A DNA stretch of 64,000 nt from Aurantiochytrium sp. KH105 (taxonomy: Eukaryota > Sar > Bigyra > Thraustochytrida > Thraustochytriidae), in the NCBI GenBank assembly GCA_003116975.1, contig BGKB01000030.1:369524-433523 (forward strand), in the 5' to 3' direction. Below the pieces are notes generated by a model. It ran no database searches and was not told where the DNA came from. It saw only the letters and a list, made by a program, of their open reading frames with translations. The translations under genes were made by a program, and so were the position numbers. Positions 11,974 through 41,359 of this stretch are shown here, piece by piece (position 1 is the first letter of the stretch; the number at the start of each line of letters is the position of its first letter).

Positions 11974-14967
11974 CTATTTTTGCTGTTGCTTTGCCTGTGC
12001 CTGCCTCTGAAGCAAAAGCAGCTCCTCGTCAGGCTCGGAGCCTCCGTCGTCGCCCATGATCTTCCACAGATCGAGGATGCTGCCCTTGTTGTTGAGAAAG
12101 TCAACATAGACATCATTGTGTGCCGTCAACGTGTCCTTGTCCTCGTCAAGCGTACGCGAAAGCGACAGACCCGGAGGGGTAGAAACCTTGGTCGTCTTGC
12201 CGTTCGTCCCATTCACAGCCTTTTCAGGGGAACTTGACCTTGTCACCTCAGCATTGCCGTCATTTCCATGACCCACGCCACCCTTTTGGCTGGTCTTCGC
12301 TCCGCCATCCACCTTGTGCTTGTTGATGTTGTTGTTGCTACTGTTGCTGTTGTTGTTGCTGGTTTCACTGATACTCTTATTCTTGTCATCGCCGCTGACG
12401 ATCCCATTGGCTTTCGTATGAACAGAACTTGATGTGGCCGCCGGGTCAGCGCTTTCCTGTTTCCCTATTTCCCTCTTGTCGACAGCGGCGGACTCCGACG
12501 CCCGTGCTCCTAATGGAGTCGGCGTCGCTGCCGTGTTCGAGCCACCCGCGGACACGGCTTCTGGCTCCGTCTGCTTAGTGTTGCGCAATGCAACAGCGGT
12601 ATCCGCGCTCTTGTCGTCCTTGCGAGCCGCCTCGCCATTATCTCCCTTACCCGGGTCTGGGGGCTCGACAGCTGTTTCCACAACAGTGGCTGACGATTCT
12701 CCTTCCCCAGGCGCCGACTCCGTGACACCACCTTGCGAGCCAGGTTTCTTGGTCTGGCCTTTTTCTTGCGCTGACGCGTTGCCGGCAGTAGTCGAGGCCG
12801 CAGAAGAAGACTCGGCAGCGGTCTTGCTGCTGCTGTTGCTGTTGTTGTTGTTATTGTTGTTATTGTTACGCTGCGCGTCCTTCCGCTTCCGGTCCTTGCT
12901 TTTTTTCTTCTGGCGTTTAGACTTTTTATTGCGAGACTCGTCCTCCGCAAACTCCTTCCAGAGCGTTTCCTGATAGGAAAGATGAAAGCGTGAACAATCA
13001 CAGCGCACGCAAACATTGCACTTGCACTCGGCGCAAAACTTGGTCGCGGGCGACTGCTTCGAGTATGGATGTTGGCAAATCGCGCAAATCACAAAATACT
13101 GCTTCCACATACGCGTTGCACGCTTCCCAATTTGGGTGTTGCGATGCTTTTGCAAATCCTGAATCTTATCCGCCGTTAATAAGATAGAGTGTGCGTCGTC
13201 CTGTCGAGCAGCAGCTGCCGCAGCATCATCCTCGGAGGCGTTCAGAGGCGGACCTGCCGTCCCCGTTGACGGCAACGTCGTCGTCTCCTCGCCCACCTGC
13301 AAGATCTTCTCCAGTCCCTCCAGCGCCATCATCACCATCGAGTTGTCTTGCAAAAGGTTGCACAGCACGGCCACGCACCCCTCGCGCACAAGATGCTCGA
13401 TCTGGGGGTCGCTTCCGCACGAGGTCGCGTTTAACAAAACCCAGCAAGCCTCGATCTTTACGTCCGGATCGGTATCAGCGTCCTTGCTCGCCAGCTTCAC
13501 CAATGTGGGGATACTTCCCGAATCCAGCACCTGCTGGATTTGCTCAATCGTGCCCGCCGCGATATTGCTCAGGGTCCAACATGCCTCCTTTTGAATGTCG
13601 CGGTTGCTGTGGCTAATCAGGTCTTTGAGGCACGGAACAGCACCGCACTCGATGATTTGTTGCGTGTAGTCCTGCTCGTCCTCGGCGCACACGATGTTAC
13701 CAACCGTGCGCAGCGCCGGCTTGACTACCCGCCAAGACTTGTTGTGTAAGAGCTCCACCAACCGCGGGCACACGTTCGCTTCGACGACGGCCTCAATGTG
13801 CGGACTCGGACCATCGCACAAGTGGCTCAAGGCCCAGCACGCATGCGAGAGGACCTCCGTGTCGTCCGATTGCAGCACGGACCCGAGCGTCCCCAGCACC
13901 GCCTGCATGTCGAGGTCGGGGCGAGGCTGCCCATCGCACAGATTGCTCAGGGTCCAGGTTGCAATTCGCAATAGACTCGTTTCTCGCACGTCTTGCATGC
14001 ACTTGAGCAGCGGCGCCAGCACCTGCGCCTCCAGAACCTTGTCTCGCGCTGGCGTCCCATCCCCAGCAATGTTTCCAAGCACCCATACTGCCTGTTCGAG
14101 AACCTCCTGATGCGTCGACCCAAGTAGAGACACCAGCGTTGGAACGGCATCGTTTTTCAGCAGCAAGTGCGTGTGTTCCGTCGCCCCGGCCGCGATATTC
14201 GTCAGTGCCCAGAGTGCTTCGACCTGCAGCGCGGCGTGTCCATTCTGTTTCAAAAAGTGCAACAACTGCGGAACAATGTCCCGATCCAGCACGTCCTGCA
14301 CCAAGGCATCCCGTTCCACCGATAAGAGCTGCCGGAATTTTTTCGTCGCCTCCAGCTGCACGTCGGCCTGGTCGCTTCGGAGCATCTCCTCCAGATCCGC
14401 AATCGCAGACTTGAGCGACTCCAGGTTCTTTTGCGTCCAGGGTTGCGCGTTGTTTGGAGGAACTGGCGCCGGAATGTATCCTTGCGCCTCGCGCCGGAGT
14501 TGAGGCGAGTCTGCGGCTCCTGACCCCATGAGCATGCGCTCCACGTGTTGTTTGTCAGGCCGCTTCGACGAGGCAGACGCCGCCGCCGCAGCAGCGGCCG
14601 CCGCTGCCGCCGCCGCCGCCGCCCCGGACGATGTCGCCGTCGAGGACGTTGACGCCCCGCTCGCCTTGCCTCGCGCGCCACTCGCCGTTTTGCCCGTCTT
14701 CCCGCCGGAAGGCGCCGCCGTCTTCCCGTTCGCCATCCTCGACGGCGCCGGCCCGGATGCAGGCCCTGCCGAAGCCGTCGATGCCGACGGAGACGCGGAC
14801 GACGACGACGACAACGAAGAAGAAGAAGAAGAAGAAGAAGAAGAAGAAGAAGAAGAAGAAGAAGACGGCGCCTGCGAGGTCCCCGCGGTGGCCGCCTTCT
14901 TCTCGCCGCCGCCGCTGCTCCCGTTCGCCGCCCTGCTCCTCGCGCCGGCGCCGGCCGCCTCGCCCAT
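11974..14967 (-). CDS. Importin-alpha-like armadillo protein with C-terminal cysteine cluster
   Basis: A 997-residue frame from the ATG at 14967. Residues about 199-573 are an importin-alpha ARM array, shown by repeated helix motifs such as ALWALTNIAAG, AVWVLGNIAGD, ATWTLSNLCDG, ACWTLSNIAAG and ACWVLLNATSCG, whose Trp/Asn ladders bind nuclear localisation signals. The last ARM-like helix (KIQDLQKHRNTQIGKRATRMW) matches where normal importin-alphas end, at about 520 residues. Two things are odd. The N-terminal 145 residues are poly-Ser and poly-Ala, with no basic importin-beta-binding domain visible. After the core come a CAIC...CAECKCNVCVRCDC cluster (about 626-659), a Lys/Arg-rich stretch (KKSKRQKKKSKDRKRK) and a 300-residue Asn/Ser-rich tail. 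The frame stays open to 15789 upstream, but that part is Arg/Ala low complexity, so I chose the ATG preceding GEAAGAG. The family is certain; the function of the tail is unknown. Confidence 0.9.
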   Translation of the reverse strand: MGEAAGAGARSRAANGSSGGGEKKAATAGTSQAPSSSSSSSSSSSSSSSSSLSSSSSASPSASTASAGPASGPAPSRMANGKTAAPSGGKTGKTASGARGKASGASTSSTATSSGAAAAAAAAAAAAAAASASSKRPDKQHVERMLMGSGAADSPQLRREAQGYIPAPVPPNNAQPWTQKNLESLKSAIADLEEMLRSDQADVQLEATKKFRQLLSVERDALVQDVLDRDIVPQLLHFLKQNGHAALQVEALWALTNIAAGATEHTHLLLKNDAVPTLVSLLGSTHQEVLEQAVWVLGNIAGDGTPARDKVLEAQVLAPLLKCMQDVRETSLLRIATWTLSNLCDGQPRPDLDMQAVLGTLGSVLQSDDTEVLSHACWALSHLCDGPSPHIEAVVEANVCPRLVELLHNKSWRVVKPALRTVGNIVCAEDEQDYTQQIIECGAVPCLKDLISHSNRDIQKEACWTLSNIAAGTIEQIQQVLDSGSIPTLVKLASKDADTDPDVKIEACWVLLNATSCGSDPQIEHLVREGCVAVLCNLLQDNSMVMMALEGLEKILQVGEETTTLPSTGTAGPPLNASEDDAAAAAARQDDAHSILLTADKIQDLQKHRNTQIGKRATRMWKQYFVICAICQHPYSKQSPATKFCAECKCNVCVRCDCSRFHLSYQETLWKEFAEDESRNKKSKRQKKKSKDRKRKDAQRNNNNNNNNNSNSSSKTAAESSSAASTTAGNASAQEKGQTKKPGSQGGVTESAPGEGESSATVVETAVEPPDPGKGDNGEAARKDDKSADTAVALRNTKQTEPEAVSAGGSNTAATPTPLGARASESAAVDKREIGKQESADPAATSSSVHTKANGIVSGDDKNKSISETSNNNSNSSNNNINKHKVDGGAKTSQKGGVGHGNDGNAEVTRSSSPEKAVNGTNGKTTKVSTPPGLSLSRTLDEDKDTLTAHNDVYVDFLNNKGSILDLWKIMGDDGGSEPDEELLLLQRQAQAKQQQK

Positions 14968-15389
14968 AGACGCCGCCGCGCCGCCCGCGCCCGCGCCCGC
15001 GCTCGCGCTCTGCCGCGCGCGGCCGGAGCGAGCGAGCGAGCGAGCGAACGAACGAGAGTAGCGGTGTAGGGGCGAGAAAGAAGGAGAAAGGAGAAAGGAG
15101 AAAGGAGTAAGAGCAGCGAGCGCCCGCCGCCTGCGCGCCTGCTCGCCTCGCCTCGCCGAGGTAGGTGGGTAGGGCGCCCGGGGCCTCCTCGCGCCGCCTC
15201 GCGCGCGCCGCCTCGCCTCGGCCCGGCCCGGCCCGCCCCGCTCCGCTCCGCGCGCGAGTGGGCGCGGCGCGAGAGGGCCGCCCTCGCTGCGCTGCGCCCG
15301 CCGCGCCGCTGCGCCGCTGTGCGCGCTCGCGGCGCTCGCTCTCGCGCGCAGCACGCACCCAGCGCCGCACGCACGCACGCACGCACGCT

Positions 15390-15428
<39 letters not shown>

Positions 15429-15847
15429 GCGCGCGCCGAGTCGGCCGGTTGGCTGCCTGGCCGCGGCGGGCGCGGGGAGGAGGGGCTTGAGCTGGCGGCC
15501 TCGCCGCCGCTCCCGCGCAGGGGACCCCCCCCTGCCGCGCGCTGCTTGGCCCTGCTTGCGCGCCTTCGCGGGGACGGGCCGCGCGCGCGCGCTGGGGGGG
15601 GGGGAGGGGGGGGGCGCTCGGGGAAACACGCTGTCCCGCCGCGGCCCCGTTTTCGGGGCCGAAGAAGGGCGCGGAGGGGGAGCAGCGCCGGGAGATCGGG
15701 GAAATGGGAAACCGCCCCGCCGCGGCGCGGAAATGGCGATGATGATGAAGATGGTGAACGAGGCCAGAACAGATTGGCAAGCAGGGCAAGAGCGAAGCAG
15801 GCGAGTGAGCGAGGGAGGCCGCGGCGGAGACGGGTCGTCTATCTGGT

Positions 15848-15878
<31 letters not shown>

Positions 15879-16239
15879 AAGGCAGACCAGGAGAGACTGC
15901 GAGCGGACGGCGAGGAAATAACGCGGGAGCAGAGGCAGAGGTAGGTGGGCGAGCCAGCTCTCACGACTTCGGGGCGCCTGGCCGGTCAATCCTTGGAGGC
16001 AAAGTCATTTTACATTTACCTCGGAGCTCAAGCGAGGAAATCCCTACAAGCTGGGATTGATTGATCGATTTATAAGCCAACAGATCGAGAAACATTGATC
16101 CTCGTTGGGTCCTTTCCGAGTCCCATTCGCCTCTTCTTCTCTTGTTCCTTTTTGCATCTTTCCCGTCGTCGACTTTTCAACCACCTTCCAACGTTGGAGA
16201 CTTGAACTTTCAGTCGACAAATCTTTCACTCACAGCAAG
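14968..16239. other. Divergent intergenic region: importin-alpha / J-domain gene
   Basis: About 1.27 kb between two genes reading outward, so it must hold both promoters and leaders. The importin-alpha side is very GC-rich with an (ACGC)n tract at about 15366-15428 and a (GGCT)n tract at about 15847-15878. The J-domain side is pyrimidine-rich and less GC-rich. Long open frames here are repeat translations. Confidence 0.6.
15366..15428. repeat. (ACGC)n microsatellite
   Basis: About 15 ACGC units, slightly interrupted by CTCG, some 400 bases upstream of the importin-alpha ATG. On that gene's sense strand the unit reads GCGT. Confidence 0.9.
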
Positions 16240-17265
16240 ATGTTCGGGGGCTTTGGAACGAGCATCATTCTCAACTCTGTCGTAATCTACCCTGTGTTGA
16301 ACAAGATTTTACGCGCAGACAAAAAGATTCCGAGTCTTCGGCATCGCAAAGTGGTCGCGATTCTCTTCCTCGCCGTCGTCGGTCTTCTCAGTGTTGGCGT
16401 GGACCTTTTGGAAATTCTTCAAGACAGAAATCTTTTTCGCGTCTTGGAGGTGTCTCGAACCGCTTCCGACAAAGACGTGCGCGTCTCGTACCAACGTCTC
16501 GCGCGCGAATTGCACCCAGACATGAATCGTGAAAACCCAAATGCAGAAGAAGACTTCATCGAAATGAAAAAGGCCTACGACATTCTCGCCAATCCAGACC
16601 TGCGCGAGGCCTACGATAAATGGGGCTACGACGGCGTCAACTGGGCTGCCAAGAGCGAAGATGTACTTTCCAATGGTCTTTTGCAAACGGGCATCTCCTA
16701 TGTCGTATGGTTCGCGCTCACCATCCTCCTGACTGTAAACTCGAGTGGGAACGATGCACGAACCATTTCCCTCGCTGGACTCTCCCTGCTCCTTGCGCTC
16801 GACCTGCAGATGCGCACAGGCGCATGGTCCATCGTGATCCCCTTTTTCCCGCACCTTGCCGTTTACCAGCTTAGCAAGCTCCTCTTCACAGTGTATCCCA
16901 CCTTTATTGGCGGCACGATCGTCTTTCAGAACACTACCTTTCTGAGCCCTGCCGAGCGCAATTTTCATTTGCTCAGCATGGCCTGCAACACGCAGGCAGC
17001 CATTTACCGCAACCTCGCAACTCTTGAGAACGAACTACGGCTCACCAAGAGCGCCGGCGCGCTTCCCACCGGAGCAGTCTCGAGTGCCGGGGGGACGGGT
17101 GCGGCCGCAGCAGCCGCCACTTCTGCGCTGCCCCGCAATTTGCGCGCAAGGAATCAACAGCACCAGCAACAACAACAACAAGGCCAGCATAAAGCAAAAC
17201 GAGGCATTCCCTCGTGGGCCTTCATGATTGGCTTTTACGTTCTTTTCAATTACATTCTCAAGTGA
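16240..17265 (+). CDS. Membrane-anchored DnaJ (J-domain) protein
   Basis: A 341-residue protein. Hydrophobic segments at about residues 8-20 and 38-58 precede a J domain at about 64-129 (LFRVLEVSRTASDKDVRVSY through AYDKWG). The J domain contains the HPD tripeptide (ELHPDMN), which stimulates Hsp70 ATPase. Further hydrophobic segments follow (QTGISYVVWFALTILLTV, TISLAGLSLLLALDL and the C-terminal WAFMIGFYVLFNYIL), so it is probably a multi-pass membrane co-chaperone, perhaps of the ER; the compartment is inference. A short Gln run lies near the C-terminus. The same frame has an ATG at 16105 that would add 45 residues; I prefer 16240 because MFGGFGTSIILN begins the hydrophobic N-terminus. The stop is 14 bases from the convergent methyltransferase gene. 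Confidence 0.85.
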   Translation: MFGGFGTSIILNSVVIYPVLNKILRADKKIPSLRHRKVVAILFLAVVGLLSVGVDLLEILQDRNLFRVLEVSRTASDKDVRVSYQRLARELHPDMNRENPNAEEDFIEMKKAYDILANPDLREAYDKWGYDGVNWAAKSEDVLSNGLLQTGISYVVWFALTILLTVNSSGNDARTISLAGLSLLLALDLQMRTGAWSIVIPFFPHLAVYQLSKLLFTVYPTFIGGTIVFQNTTFLSPAERNFHLLSMACNTQAAIYRNLATLENELRLTKSAGALPTGAVSSAGGTGAAAAAATSALPRNLRARNQQHQQQQQQGQHKAKRGIPSWAFMIGFYVLFNYILK

Positions 17266-28008: not shown

Positions 28009-31000
28009 ATGTTCATCAAGGAGATCATCGTCGATGGGTTCAAGTCGTACGCAAATCGCACCGTTGTGCCGGACTTTGATCCACAGTTCAATGCCATCAC
28101 CGGTCTGAACGGCAGCGGCAAGTCAAACATTTTGGACTCCATTTGCTTCGTGCTTGGCATCACCCAACTGAGCCAGGTCCGCGTTGCAAACCTTCAGGGC
28201 CTTGTCTACAAGCAGGGCCAATCTGGTGTCACCAAAGCAAGTGTCTCCATCGTCTTCAACAATGCCGACCGAGAGCGCGCCCCCGTCGGGTACGAGAACG
28301 ACAACGAAATCACGGTCACCCGTCAGGTTGTCATCGGAGGCCGCAACAAATATCTCATCAACGGTCGCAGCGTGCAGGCCAAAGAAGTCCAGAACCTCTT
28401 TCATTCCGTGCAGTTGAATGTCAACAATCCACATTTTCTCATCATGCAAGGACGCATCACAAAGGTTCTCAACATGAAACCGCCCGAAATCCTCGGCATG
28501 ATTGAGGAGGCTGTCGGAACGCGCATGTACGAGTCCAAGAAAGCAGATGCACAACGGAAAATGGAGCAAAAGCAGACCAAAGTCGACGAGATTGAAACCC
28601 TCCTTGCAGAGGAAATCACTCCCAAGCTCGACAAGCTTCGTAACGAAAAGCAGTCGTACCTGAAATGGGCCAGTCAAAACACTGAAATCGAGCGTCTGCA
28701 GCGCTTCTGCGTTGCCCATCGCTACTACGAGTGTGTTAAACTCGTCACGGACGCCGATGCGCACGAGAGCACACTCGCGAACCAGATTCAGGCGCTCGAG
28801 ACCGAAATGAACGATATGCGGGCCACTCTCGAGGACATGCGCGAGAGCGAGGCCGCAATCGGAGGTGAGGCTGTAAAGAAGCTTGAGAAGCGCGTCGAAA
28901 AGCTCGCAGCTCGTGAAGACGAGGCTTCCAAGGTCCTTGTCAAGGGCACCTCGCGTTTCGAGAATGTCAAAGCCAAGCAGGCCAAGCTCCAGGCTAAGCA
29001 GCAGTCCATGATCGACCAGCAAGCTGCCTTTGCTGACCTGCGCGTCGCGGCGCACACTCGCATTGACCAGGCCAAGATCGCGCTCGAAGCCGAGGCGGCC
29101 AACTATGCTGCCGCCAAACGGACTCTCAGCAATGCGCAGCTCGCCCTGCAGGCCGCCAACGCAGGCCTCGACAACAGCGCCGCCGATGGCGAAGATGGCG
29201 ACGCCCAGCAACTCACCATGGAAGAAAAGCTCGTCGGTCTGCGAAGCGCCGCCGAGGCCGCCGCAACAGAGGTTACGCAGCAAAAGATGAAGCTGGATCA
29301 CGCCAAGAAAGACCTCAAGGCCGTCGCTGCCCAGGTGAAGAAGGCAAAGTCTGCCAATACCAAGTCCCAGAACGAGCTCGAAAAGTACACGCGTGCCGTC
29401 GCGGCTCTCGAGGCAGAGGTATCCGCCATCGACTACAACCCTGAAGCCGCCGCGGACCTCGAGGCCGGTCTCGAGGCCAAGGCCAGTGAACTCGTCGAGG
29501 CCAAGGACAAGGCGGAACAGCTCGCAGCCCAGCTCACGGCCTTTGACTTTGAGTACGCCGACCCTTCGGCGGACTTTGACCGCTCCAAGGTAAAGGGCAC
29601 TGTGGCTAGCCTCATTGATGTCCCGAACAAGTCGCATGCCCCGGCTCTTGAGGTCGTCGCGGGAGGAAAGCTCTTCCAGGTCGTCGTGGACGCGGTGGAT
29701 ACCGGCAAGGCCCTTCTCGACAAGGGCAAGCTTAAGCGTCGCGTCACCATCATTCCCCTCGACAAGGTTGCCTCCAAACCAATCGCGGAGTCCAAGCTCC
29801 AGGCCGCAGGCGAGATTGCTGCCGAGCGCAACGGTACTGCACAAAGCGCTCTGTCTCTGGTTGGCTTCGATGACGAGGTTGCGCGCGCCATGGAATACGT
29901 CTTCGGCACCACCTTGGTGTGCGACTCCCTTACCACGGCGCGGTCAGTCACCTTCGACAAGCGAGTCAGTGTCAAGAGCGTGACGCTCGACGGCGATGCC
30001 TTTGATCCCCAGGGTACCCTCTCGGGCGGATCACGCTCTACTCGCGGCTCTGCGCTTGCCCAACTCCAACGCTTGCGCGAGTTTCGCGCTCAGGTGGCTA
30101 GTGCAGAAAAGGAAATCGCAGATGGCAAGCGTAAACTCGCTGGTTGGACCGCCTCTGCCAAGGCATACGCCAAGGCATCCTCAAAGCTCGACCTCGCCCG
30201 CCACGAACTCGGCCTCGTCAAGGAGCGCATTGGGTCAACCCCGTTTGCACAGCTCTTGCAAAAGCAAGAGGGCCTCGAGACGACTCTCTCAACCCTCACG
30301 GAAGGCATTGCAGCCACAGGCGAACGTCGGGAAAAGGCGCTCGCCGATGCCGCAGCCATGGAGGAGGAAATGAAAGACATGGAGGCCGCGCGCAGCAATC
30401 TCATCACAAAGGCGCAAAACGCTCTGCAGCAAGCCAAAGATCAGTTTTCCGCCGCAGAGGGGCAGTACCAAAAGGCACAAGGCGCCGCTGATAGCGCCGA
30501 GCTCGCCCTCGAGGATCTTGACAAGGAGGAAGCCTCCATGGAGGAATCTCTTCTTGCCTCACAGACGCAGACCTCCGATGGGCAGGAGGAGCTCGATGCT
30601 CTCGAGGCCGACGTCAATCAGCTCAAGGAGGCCCATCAAGAAGCCCTCGCGGCGCTCGAGGCGTGCCGCGCAGAACTCGATGCCTGCCGCGCAGAACTTG
30701 GAAAGATCGCCAAGTCCCGGGCTAAGATCGAGGACCGCATGCAGGCCTGCGAGCTCAAGACCAAGGAGCTCGAGAGCGACAAGAAGCGCATTGACGTCAA
30801 CTCGCGCGATGCGGCTCGCGAAGGGAAACATCTCAGGGCCAAAAACCCCTGGATCGCTTCGGAGGAGCAATTCTTCGGCAAGCCGCACACCGACTACGAC
30901 TTTGCGGCTCGCAATCCGTCGCAGGCGAAGAAACGTCTAGCCGAGCTCGACGCTGCGCAAAACAAAATGTCGCGCAACGTCAACAAAAAAGTCATGGGTA

Positions 31001-31674
31001 TGATTGACAAGGCTGAGCAAGAGTACGAGGATCTCAATCGCAAACGCACCATCATTGAGAAGGACCGCAAGACCATCGAGCGTGTCATCAAGGACCTTGA
31101 CACCAAGGCTGAGCAGGCTCTGCAAACCTCTTGGGAAAAGGTCAATGCCGACTTTGGATCGATCTTCTCGACCCTCTTGCCAGGCACCCAAGCCAAGCTC
31201 GAGCCCCCAGAGGGCGGCACGATCCGCGATGGCCTGGAAGTGCGCGTGGCCTTTGGCGAGACATGGAAAAAGTCGCTCACCGAGCTCAGTGGTGGCCAGC
31301 GCTCCCTGCTCGCGCTTTCGCTCATCCTCGCGCTCCTGCTCTTCAAGCCGGCCCCCATGTACATTCTCGATGAGGTCGATGCCGCGCTCGATCTTTCGCA
31401 CACTCAGAACATTGGCCAGATGTTGCGCACGCACTTTGCCCATTCCCAGTTCATCGTTGTTTCTCTCAAGGAGGGCATGTTCAACAATGCCAACGTGATC
31501 TTTCGCACAAAGTTCGTGGATGGCGTCTCCACCGTCACACGTACCTCCAACAAGGACCACATTAAGCGTCTCAAGTATGAGGAAAAGACCGCTGCTGCAA
31601 ACAAGCGCGCTGACAAGCTCGAAAAGTCCAAGAAGCGTTCTCGAGCCGATCAAAACATTGCCGTCAACCAGTAG
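28009..31674 (+). CDS. SMC2: SMC2 condensin ATPase subunit
   Basis: A full-length, intronless 1221-residue SMC protein. It begins MFIKEIIVDGFKSYANRT, the usual SMC2 start, with Walker A GLNGSGKSN at about residues 32-40 and the SMC2-typical LSQVRVANLQGLVYKQGQ next. Long coiled coils flank a hinge at about 520-690 (KGTVASLIDV to the GGSRSTRG region). The C-terminal head carries the ABC signature LSGGQRSLLAL (about 1093), Walker B YILDEVDAALD (about 1118) and a conserved end with FRTKFVDGVSTV. SMC2 pairs with SMC4 in condensin to compact mitotic chromosomes. The final 40 residues are Lys-rich. The start is the first ATG, 12 residues before GFKSYA as in homologues. Confidence 0.97.
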   Translation: MFIKEIIVDGFKSYANRTVVPDFDPQFNAITGLNGSGKSNILDSICFVLGITQLSQVRVANLQGLVYKQGQSGVTKASVSIVFNNADRERAPVGYENDNEITVTRQVVIGGRNKYLINGRSVQAKEVQNLFHSVQLNVNNPHFLIMQGRITKVLNMKPPEILGMIEEAVGTRMYESKKADAQRKMEQKQTKVDEIETLLAEEITPKLDKLRNEKQSYLKWASQNTEIERLQRFCVAHRYYECVKLVTDADAHESTLANQIQALETEMNDMRATLEDMRESEAAIGGEAVKKLEKRVEKLAAREDEASKVLVKGTSRFENVKAKQAKLQAKQQSMIDQQAAFADLRVAAHTRIDQAKIALEAEAANYAAAKRTLSNAQLALQAANAGLDNSAADGEDGDAQQLTMEEKLVGLRSAAEAAATEVTQQKMKLDHAKKDLKAVAAQVKKAKSANTKSQNELEKYTRAVAALEAEVSAIDYNPEAAADLEAGLEAKASELVEAKDKAEQLAAQLTAFDFEYADPSADFDRSKVKGTVASLIDVPNKSHAPALEVVAGGKLFQVVVDAVDTGKALLDKGKLKRRVTIIPLDKVASKPIAESKLQAAGEIAAERNGTAQSALSLVGFDDEVARAMEYVFGTTLVCDSLTTARSVTFDKRVSVKSVTLDGDAFDPQGTLSGGSRSTRGSALAQLQRLREFRAQVASAEKEIADGKRKLAGWTASAKAYAKASSKLDLARHELGLVKERIGSTPFAQLLQKQEGLETTLSTLTEGIAATGERREKALADAAAMEEEMKDMEAARSNLITKAQNALQQAKDQFSAAEGQYQKAQGAADSAELALEDLDKEEASMEESLLASQTQTSDGQEELDALEADVNQLKEAHQEALAALEACRAELDACRAELGKIAKSRAKIEDRMQACELKTKELESDKKRIDVNSRDAAREGKHLRAKNPWIASEEQFFGKPHTDYDFAARNPSQAKKRLAELDAAQNKMSRNVNKKVMGMIDKAEQEYEDLNRKRTIIEKDRKTIERVIKDLDTKAEQALQTSWEKVNADFGSIFSTLLPGTQAKLEPPEGGTIRDGLEVRVAFGETWKKSLTELSGGQRSLLALSLILALLLFKPAPMYILDEVDAALDLSHTQNIGQMLRTHFAHSQFIVVSLKEGMFNNANVIFRTKFVDGVSTVTRTSNKDHIKRLKYEEKTAAANKRADKLEKSKKRSRADQNIAVNQ

Positions 31675-39073: not shown

Positions 39074-41359
39074 ATGAACTCCGCCTCGACGTCGCGCGAG
39101 GGCGAGGGCGAGGGCGACGCGGACGCGCAGAAGGAGGCGGCGGCGGCGGAGGCGGCGGCGAAGACGGCGCAGGCCGCCCCAGCCCCGCCGCAGACGCCGC
39201 CCGCGGGGAAGGAAGGAGCAGGAGAAGGAGAAGAAGGCCACGAGGAAGACGTGGCCACCAACACCGACCCCAAGGACGGCGACGAGGAGGAGAAAAAGGA
39301 GAGGGAGAGGGAGAACGAGAAGACACAGGATCGCGGGAGCCGGGTCCCATCGCTCGCCGCAGACGCTGGCGAAGCTGGTCCGTCCGGGGCCGGCCCGGGC
39401 GCGGGTGCGAAAGTGACAACGCCCAGCAAGTTGGGCGCGAACCCGCCCCGGCCAGATACTGGAACCGGCAGCAAAAATGCACGTCTAGTCGCGAACAACG
39501 CCCAACACCACGCTGGCCGCTCGCCGCACTCGAAACGCTCCCCATCGCAGACCGGGCGAAGCGGGCGAAGCGGATCTTTGCGCGGATCAGCAAAGAAATG
39601 CATTGCCAACTTTATGGTCGGCAAGCTACTCGGAGAAGGTGCGTACGCGCGAGTGCACGTGTGCAAGCTCAAGTCGTCCAATGAGCTCTACGCCGTCAAG
39701 GTCATGGAAAAAAGATTTATTGTAAAGGAGGGCAAGGTCAACTTTGTCAACATGGAAAAGAAAGTGCTCAGTCTCGTCGATCATGCGCTCATCGCCAAGC
39801 TGTACTTTTCCTTCCATGACTCACGATACCTGTACTTGGTCATTGACCTATGCAAGGGCGGGGAGCTGCAGCGTCTCATTCGCTTTCGCGCGGACGAACA
39901 CCGGAAGCGTTCGGGAATCGTCAACCGCGCATGTTCTCTGAAGGAGACCAAATTCTACATTACCGAAACGGTGGCGGCCGTACAGCATCTTCACACCATG
40001 GGGTTCATTCATCGGGATCTCAAACCGGATAACATTCTCATCACAGAGTCGGGCCACGTTAAACTCACTGATTTTGGCACAGTTAAAGACGAACGAGGAC
40101 TGCAGGCGTCACAGCCAACCTCGCAGCAACAGCAGCAGCAGCAGCAGCAGCAATCACAACAGCAGAAACAACAGCAGGACCAACAACATCCAGGAAAGGC
40201 CCCGAGTCGAGGTGCTGCTGCGGGCACGCGACGTGGGACGTTCTGTGGTACAGCTGAATACGTTTCTCCAGAGGTGCTCTCTGACCAAGACCCGTCCGTC
40301 GCTGCAGACCTCTGGGCTTTAGGATGCATGATCTTCCAAATGCTCATTGGCCGCCCACCTTTTCGAGGTGGCTCCGAGTACTTTACCTTCCAGCTGATCA
40401 TGGGTCACGGCAAAGAACTCGAATTCCCCAAGGTGGAGTATGCACCCACGGATGCGGACGCAGCGGATGCGCCGGGACATTTACAACCAGGTGATGACTC
40501 CAGCGGAGACCAGGAGGCAATCGACGATACTTTGGCGCTTCGCGAAGCCCGCGCGCTTGTGAACGCCTTGCTTCGCCCAGACCCTCTGCAACGTCTTGGC
40601 GCCGGTCAGAACTGCACGCCCTTTTGCCCCTTGTACAATGCTGACTCCCCGAATGGACCGCTCGCGTTACGGTCGCATGCCTTTTTTGCTGGCGTGGAGT
40701 GGGACAACCTGGCAGACCAGCCGGCGCCTCCGCTACCATACGCGACGGACATCCCTGCGCCCACATTTGATGGCGCCTCGGACGACTGGATGATGGCGGG
40801 AGACATTACAGAGCTTGAGATGGCGGCAGCGCTGGAGATGACGCAGGCCTCCCCGGTGCTCGAAAGCCCGCTAGCGGTCGCATCCGCCAGCACGCCATCA
40901 TCGAGTGCAGCCACTTCGCTGCTTTCGCCGCCCGGAGAACTCGGGATCGTCAACGATTCTCCGGTCGGCATGGTATCGCCCGGTTCGGGCATGCCGCTGG
41001 ACCCAAATCTACTGAACAGCACTTCGTCCGGGGGACGCACAGTCGTTGGGGAGCTGTCGCAGTTTCTCAAACCGAATGAGCGAATTGTTCTTGATGGCCT
41101 TGTCGTGAAGCGTAAGAGTCTGTTTCACACCAACACGCGGCATCTTATACTTACGGACTTGCCACGCTTTCTCTATGTGGACCCAGTCAAAGTTATCCTC
41201 AAGGGCGAGATTGCCATTGAAAAGAGCGTCTTTATTCAGGTCAAGAATAGCAAGACCTTTGACATTGTCACGCCGAAGCGCACTTTTCACATGACAGATC
41301 TCATGTCGCAAGCCAAGCGATGGCAGGCAGCTTTTGACCAAGTCCACAGTGGTGTATAA
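39074..41359 (+). CDS. PDPK1: PDK1 (3-phosphoinositide-dependent protein kinase)
   Basis: A 761-residue intronless AGC kinase. A disordered acidic N-terminus of about 175 residues is followed by the kinase domain: FMVGKLLGEGAYARVHVC (about 180), AVKVMEKRF, IHRDLKPDNIL (about 311), LTDFGTVKDE, then TFCGTAEYVSPEVL and ADLWALGCMIFQML. A C-terminal PH domain (about 667-761, NERIVLDGLVVKRKSLF through KTFDIVTPKRTFHM) is diagnostic of PDK1, which phosphorylates activation loops of other AGC kinases at membranes rich in phosphoinositides. A poly-Gln insertion (about 40124-40190) lies between the DFG motif and the TFCGT loop, making the activation segment about 40 residues longer than usual. The Thr of TFCGT sits where animal PDK1 has its autophosphorylated Ser. 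Confidence 0.93.
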   Translation: MNSASTSREGEGEGDADAQKEAAAAEAAAKTAQAAPAPPQTPPAGKEGAGEGEEGHEEDVATNTDPKDGDEEEKKERERENEKTQDRGSRVPSLAADAGEAGPSGAGPGAGAKVTTPSKLGANPPRPDTGTGSKNARLVANNAQHHAGRSPHSKRSPSQTGRSGRSGSLRGSAKKCIANFMVGKLLGEGAYARVHVCKLKSSNELYAVKVMEKRFIVKEGKVNFVNMEKKVLSLVDHALIAKLYFSFHDSRYLYLVIDLCKGGELQRLIRFRADEHRKRSGIVNRACSLKETKFYITETVAAVQHLHTMGFIHRDLKPDNILITESGHVKLTDFGTVKDERGLQASQPTSQQQQQQQQQQSQQQKQQQDQQHPGKAPSRGAAAGTRRGTFCGTAEYVSPEVLSDQDPSVAADLWALGCMIFQMLIGRPPFRGGSEYFTFQLIMGHGKELEFPKVEYAPTDADAADAPGHLQPGDDSSGDQEAIDDTLALREARALVNALLRPDPLQRLGAGQNCTPFCPLYNADSPNGPLALRSHAFFAGVEWDNLADQPAPPLPYATDIPAPTFDGASDDWMMAGDITELEMAAALEMTQASPVLESPLAVASASTPSSSAATSLLSPPGELGIVNDSPVGMVSPGSGMPLDPNLLNSTSSGGRTVVGELSQFLKPNERIVLDGLVVKRKSLFHTNTRHLILTDLPRFLYVDPVKVILKGEIAIEKSVFIQVKNSKTFDIVTPKRTFHMTDLMSQAKRWQAAFDQVHSGV

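Follow-up and report, generated by a model that had tools for sequence, protein, structure and literature searches.

The gene and its layout

The window analysed here is a stretch of 64,000 nucleotides from contig BGKB01000030.1 of the thraustochytrid Aurantiochytrium sp. KH105, and the gene in question lies on its minus strand at 11974-14967. It encodes a protein with the armadillo (ARM) repeat core of an importin-alpha, no recognizable importin-beta-binding domain (IBB), and a C-terminal extension containing a cysteine module, a basic stretch resembling a nuclear localization signal (NLS), a linker and a constrained end. The coordinates and frame given in the original prediction, made from the sequence alone, are correct: the gene is a single-exon frame of 997 aa and a stop, and 14967 is the position of its earliest in-frame ATG. 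Contig C140 carries a counterpart (G000:C140; L016:2516-5461) that encodes 981 aa. The two coding sequences agree at 2848/2943 aligned bases (96.8%), and the length of each of their four indels is divisible by three, whereas the 5' flanks are 85.1% identical (951/1118) and 16 of their 20 indels are not multiples of three. As the indels keep the frame within the coding sequence and mostly break it upstream, coding is placed as beginning at or near ATG 14967.

Constraint along the protein was measured by Nei-Gojobori counts of synonymous and non-synonymous changes between the window gene and this copy (58:39 over the whole protein), with segment boundaries set after the copy alignment or the protein had been viewed. 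The features are as follows; dN/dS is the ratio of non-synonymous to synonymous substitution rates.

11974-14967, minus: IBB-less importin-alpha paralogue, single-exon coding sequence, 997 aa plus stop (frame analysis, second copy)
14578-14967, minus: residues 1-130, poly-Ser/poly-Ala low-complexity N-terminus with 10 K/R in 130 (composition)
14383-14577, minus: residues 131-195, constrained segment immediately N-terminal to ARM1, in the usual place of an IBB but not IBB-like (dN/dS 0.076)
13093-14382, minus: residues 196-625, ARM repeats 1-10 with NLS groove (Pfam, paralogue alignment, motif scan, model)
13093-13182, minus: residues 596-625, ARM10, best stretch 600-625 (match to Pfam Arm_3)
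12970-13092, minus: residues 626-666, cysteine module directly after ARM10, eight Cys and His662 (pattern, second copy)
12880-12927, minus: residues 681-696, NLS-like basic stretch KKSKRQKKKSKDRKRK (composition, second copy)
12178-12867, minus: residues 701-930, nearly unconstrained low-complexity linker (dN/dS 0.74)
11977-12177, minus: residues 931-997, constrained C-terminal segment containing DVYVDFLNNKGSILDLWKIMGDDGGSEPDEELLLLQ (dN/dS 0.036)

The ARM core

Pfam matches the whole protein to Arm at E 8.8e-65 and to Arm_3, the family of ARM10, at E 5.5e-8. The latter score of 32.7 bits, against a cut-off of 28.8, is summed over two stretches that each stay below it (22.2 and 18.5 bits), as does the match in the fragment at 22 bits. 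The NLS groove is lined by the pairs W253/N257, W295/N299, W338/N342, R420/N424, W464/N468 and W509/N513. The protein thus has a solenoid of the importin-alpha type, the Trp/Asn arrays of both the major and the minor NLS sites and the atypical ARM10, and the importin-alpha core that had been proposed is supported. Residues 196-625 are constrained (18:1 synonymous to non-synonymous, dN/dS 0.017); no residue differs between the two aligned proteins in this part, and we attribute the single non-synonymous count to a codon that changed in more than one step.

Absence of the IBB

No IBB is reported by Pfam in the 997-aa protein at thresholds up to E 10. All 76.0 Mb of the genome (367 contigs) were also scanned in six frames with PF01749 at E<=10; the scan, which scores only its best candidates (7 of 7), returned seven places, six of them over the cut-off and none within the window. 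A dedicated search of two upstream minus-strand frames also found no IBB, the third frame being covered by the genome scan alone. Residues 131-172 hold six K/R, against 13, 13 and 14 in stretches of equal length from the three IBBs of this genome. A degenerate IBB just before ARM1 was considered and rejected: when residues 126-200 and 2000 shuffles of them were scored on a model of the three IBBs found in this genome, on which its members L001 and L003 obtain about 89 bits, 1096 shuffles did as well as the real sequence (1794 of the 2003 sequences were scored, and shuffles without a score were counted as below). On all these tests the IBB is absent, as the original prediction had suspected. 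Because the N-terminal IBB is missing, the protein is classified, from its predicted sequence, as an IBB-less importin-alpha paralogue and not as a canonical importin-alpha. The N-terminus has two parts. Residues 1-130 differ in length between the copies (12 gap columns; 13:8, dN/dS 0.24), and residues 131-195 are constrained (4:1), the BLAST alignment with L001 extending into this segment from residue 136.

The frame remains open for 331 codons upstream of ATG 14967, which would leave room for a normal IBB to have been missed through an unannotated exon or a wrong start. We regard this as highly improbable. The open frame contains no further in-frame ATG, the indels behave as coding on one side of the ATG and as non-coding on the other, and a divergent DnaJ gene begins at 16240 (16240-17265, plus strand). 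An upstream exon with a normal IBB, the observation named in advance as telling against an IBB-less protein, was looked for and not found; such an exon was rejected on the genome scan, the upstream-frame search and the frame-breaking indels of the 5' flank.

Second copies and other importin-alpha genes

The six IBB places over the cut-off form three gene pairs (L001/L002, L003/L004 and L005/L006), with identities of 88.9-96.1% over the two main blocks and 94.1-95.0% over the longest. From each pair one gene was examined, namely L001, L003 or L005. A clear IBB at the N-terminus, together with ARM repeats, is present in L001 (47.5 bits) and L003 (44.1 bits). L005:1390-3168, whose pair is L006, is a third, divergent importin-alpha-like gene; its IBB scores 20.6 bits on the whole protein, below the cut-off of 23.8, and a scan for groove motifs of the form W/R-x3-N/Y/H gave five in it and seven in L003. 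The seventh place in the IBB scan, L007, is a below-cut-off match within a long, acidic-tract-bearing frame; this is a putative XPG-like nuclease and is not counted as an importin-alpha. Genes of the importin-beta type are kept in the genome (16 IBN_N matches), so it is presumably the IBB-bearing copies that serve the classical import route.

Four gene pairs were compared, on contig pairs such as C30/C140, C30/C87, C264/C276 and C33/C110, and the two copies in each are ~4-6% diverged in their longest blocks. Each of these genes seems to be present twice in the assembly, either as haplotypes (alleles) or as subgenomes (homeologues).

Around the IBB-less gene, the region 14968-16239 of the window is intergenic between divergent genes, very GC-rich (70%), and contains tetranucleotide repeats whose length differs between the two copies. 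Several of the neighbours are likewise single long frames, for example the DnaJ gene, a kinase-PH gene at 39074-41359 and, at 28009-31674, a gene of the SMC type.

The C-terminal parts

The cysteine module follows the pattern C628-x2-C631-x13-C645-x2-C648-x4-C653-x2-C656-x5-H662, with C650 and C658 in addition, giving nine candidate ligands (C628, C631, C645, C648, C650, C653, C656, C658 and H662). None of 5000 shuffles of the protein reached eight Cys within 34 residues. The CAIC-x13 cluster originally noticed after the last ARM helix is a real pattern. It is the same in the second copy, with three synonymous changes and no non-synonymous one. The proposed B-box-like identity is not supported. 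No Pfam family exceeds its cut-off for the module, in the whole protein or as a fragment; the C2H2 family PF23107 and the B-box family PF00643 both stay below theirs, the latter at 8.9 bits (E 2.3) in the whole protein and 11.2 bits (E 0.44) in the fragment against 24.1. The B-box has C-x2-C-x5-H spacing, as at the end of this module, and a last His that is wanting here. The best matches in the PDB, by phmmer, are the FYVE-type fingers of Slp4 (2csz, E 0.22 over 42 query residues) and rabphilin (1zbd, E 0.24 over 33). The rabphilin finger shares the C-x2-C-x13-C-x2-C-x4-C-x2-C spacing through the sixth Cys, although neither match is significant; FYVE fingers have a last Cys pair, and here there is no Cys after residue 658, so that this fourth pair is absent. 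The predicted model gives residues 628-673 a pLDDT (predicted local distance difference test) below 50. The module probably binds zinc.

Beyond the locus and its copy, five weak matches to the module (E 0.003-0.24) were found in the genome. Those on C89, C13, C16 and C40 were dropped, as their frames contain stop codons and the loci resemble copies of one repeated sequence, and that on C96 spans only 30 residues; no other convincing locus for the module was found in the genome.

What was described as a long disordered tail is only partly that. The linker, residues 701-930, is nearly free of constraint (11:27), but the tail ends in residues 931-997, where the counts are 7:1; the difference between the two segments has a Fisher p of 0.0036, a guide only since the boundaries were chosen by hand. 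These last 67 residues occur nowhere else in the genome at E<=1 apart from the copy, and no Pfam family covers them. Their best PDB match (E 0.01), to a repeat protein with low-scoring single repeats, is taken as chance. They look like a functional element inside the supposed disordered tail.

A module without a Pfam family over its cut-off might raise the suspicion of a pseudogene, or of an artefactual fusion between an ARM protein and an unrelated cysteine-rich tail. This we find scarcely credible: both copies share the architecture and the open frame, dN/dS is low in the core and in the end, and the four coding indels all keep the frame.

Between the module and the linker, residues 667-700 (2:1) include the basic stretch. 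The strong basicity reported for it is borne out, with 12 K/R in 16 residues (reached in none of 5000 shuffles); the second copy differs there by a single S-to-G replacement. It may act as the protein's own NLS or as a competitor for the groove. The original prediction suggested that it could replace the autoinhibitory IBB as an internal NLS mimic; it would then fold back into the NLS groove as a cis-autoinhibitor, and might be controlled by the cysteine module. The groove is intact and the stretch remains basic in both copies, in keeping with this. Nevertheless, we consider autoinhibition of this kind unlikely: the stretch begins 55 residues past ARM10, whereas an IBB lies at the other end of the protein, and we saw nothing that would couple release of the stretch to importin-beta. 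The predicted model, in which residues 677-683 and 685-700 have a pLDDT below 50, gives no confident docking in the groove either way, which is weak evidence.

Proposed role

We put at about even the chance that the gene encodes an additional importin-alpha paralogue, one that binds cargo with a classical NLS, cannot couple to importin-beta1 in the usual way because its IBB is gone, and has acquired a different coupling through its added C-terminal parts. The complete groove would bind the cargo. Loss of the IBB would also remove the usual autoinhibition, and NLS cargo could then be held independently of importin-beta and RanGTP. The cysteine module, the NLS-like stretch and the conserved C-terminal peptide would supply the new coupling; the protein would reach the nucleus unaided or be carried there as cargo, and the added parts would attach it to a specific partner or nuclear site. 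The original suggestion of an adaptor that might do without importin-beta is compatible with these observations.

It is possible, if somewhat improbable, that the protein uses the basic stretch as its own NLS, is carried into the nucleus by ordinary importin-alpha/beta, and works mainly there, as a scaffold or retention factor that binds NLSs and whose cysteine module and C-terminal peptide bind partners. The basicity of the stretch (12 of 16 residues), its location in a low-confidence and probably flexible region of the model, and the presence of IBB-bearing importin-alphas and importin-beta-type genes as carriers are all consistent with this. Basic stretches are, however, common in flexible tails, and the scaffold overlaps with the role of an alternatively coupled paralogue.

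Several observations weigh against such a paralogue. The constraint is drawn from two copies in one genome (58 + 39 changes), with only three changes in the cysteine module. ARM6-7 carries a 2-residue insertion, one minor-site Gly of L003 and L001 is Ala428 here, and their ARM5 Tyr is His382, so the choice of cargo may differ. The conserved residues 131-195 could bind importin-beta through a sequence that IBB models do not see. Finally, the precedent of CHD4, whose import by importin-alphas is independent of importin-beta1 according to the accessible text of the source, is not clean, as importin-beta1 enhanced or stabilized the CHD4-importin-alpha1 complex in vitro (PMC10112965).

A bolder form of the alternatively coupled paralogue is a distinct class of importin-alpha-derived adaptor. 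Here the importin-beta handle would have been lost, its place taken at the C-terminus by the cysteine module, the basic stretch and the conserved terminal peptide as a coupling unit, and classical NLS cargo would be moved or held via a partner other than importin-beta1. We hold this to be doubtful. Relatives were sought in viral contigs, where one pattern match and no confirmed relative was obtained, and in phage records, where there were none at E<=1e-5. The conserved C-terminal peptide and the cysteine module are concrete baits for an alternative partner.

Comparison with known importin-alphas

The protein shares with importin-alpha (karyopherin-alpha; rice IMPA1a, 4b8j, and yeast Kap60) the ARM solenoid to the tenth repeat and the Trp/Asn pairs of the NLS groove, and differs from them in having no IBB. 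Its paralogues L003 and L001 have an acidic stretch after ARM10; here the cysteine module occupies that position, followed by the basic stretch, linker and conserved end.

The layout had been thought to be without precedent. For the missing IBB this does not hold: Drosophila has several importin-alphas (alphaKap2A, 2D-2H, 4, 5 and 6) that have kept the ARM repeats and lost the IBB, and the authors suggest that transport independent of importin-beta might be a role of these duplicates (PMC8645118). A number of them arose as retrogenes or are partly processed copies, tied by the authors to the male germline, and the accessible text names no added cysteine module or conserved tail (PMC8645118). 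As for the module, no importin-alpha with a fused zinc-binding module is present among the open-licence literature matches listed, in so far as their text was accessible, which is weak evidence of novelty.

As far as the available text of the sources goes, the importin-alpha of P. falciparum binds NLSs with high affinity without importin-beta1 (PMC8997399), as the protein described here might, and is a unique gene of the parasite (PMC9695642), whereas here three other importin-alpha genes stand alongside. Importin-alpha has been defined by an NLS groove paired with an importin-beta handle; an organism in which IBB-bearing copies coexist with a selected IBB-less copy is a natural test of the roles of importin-alpha apart from importin-beta.
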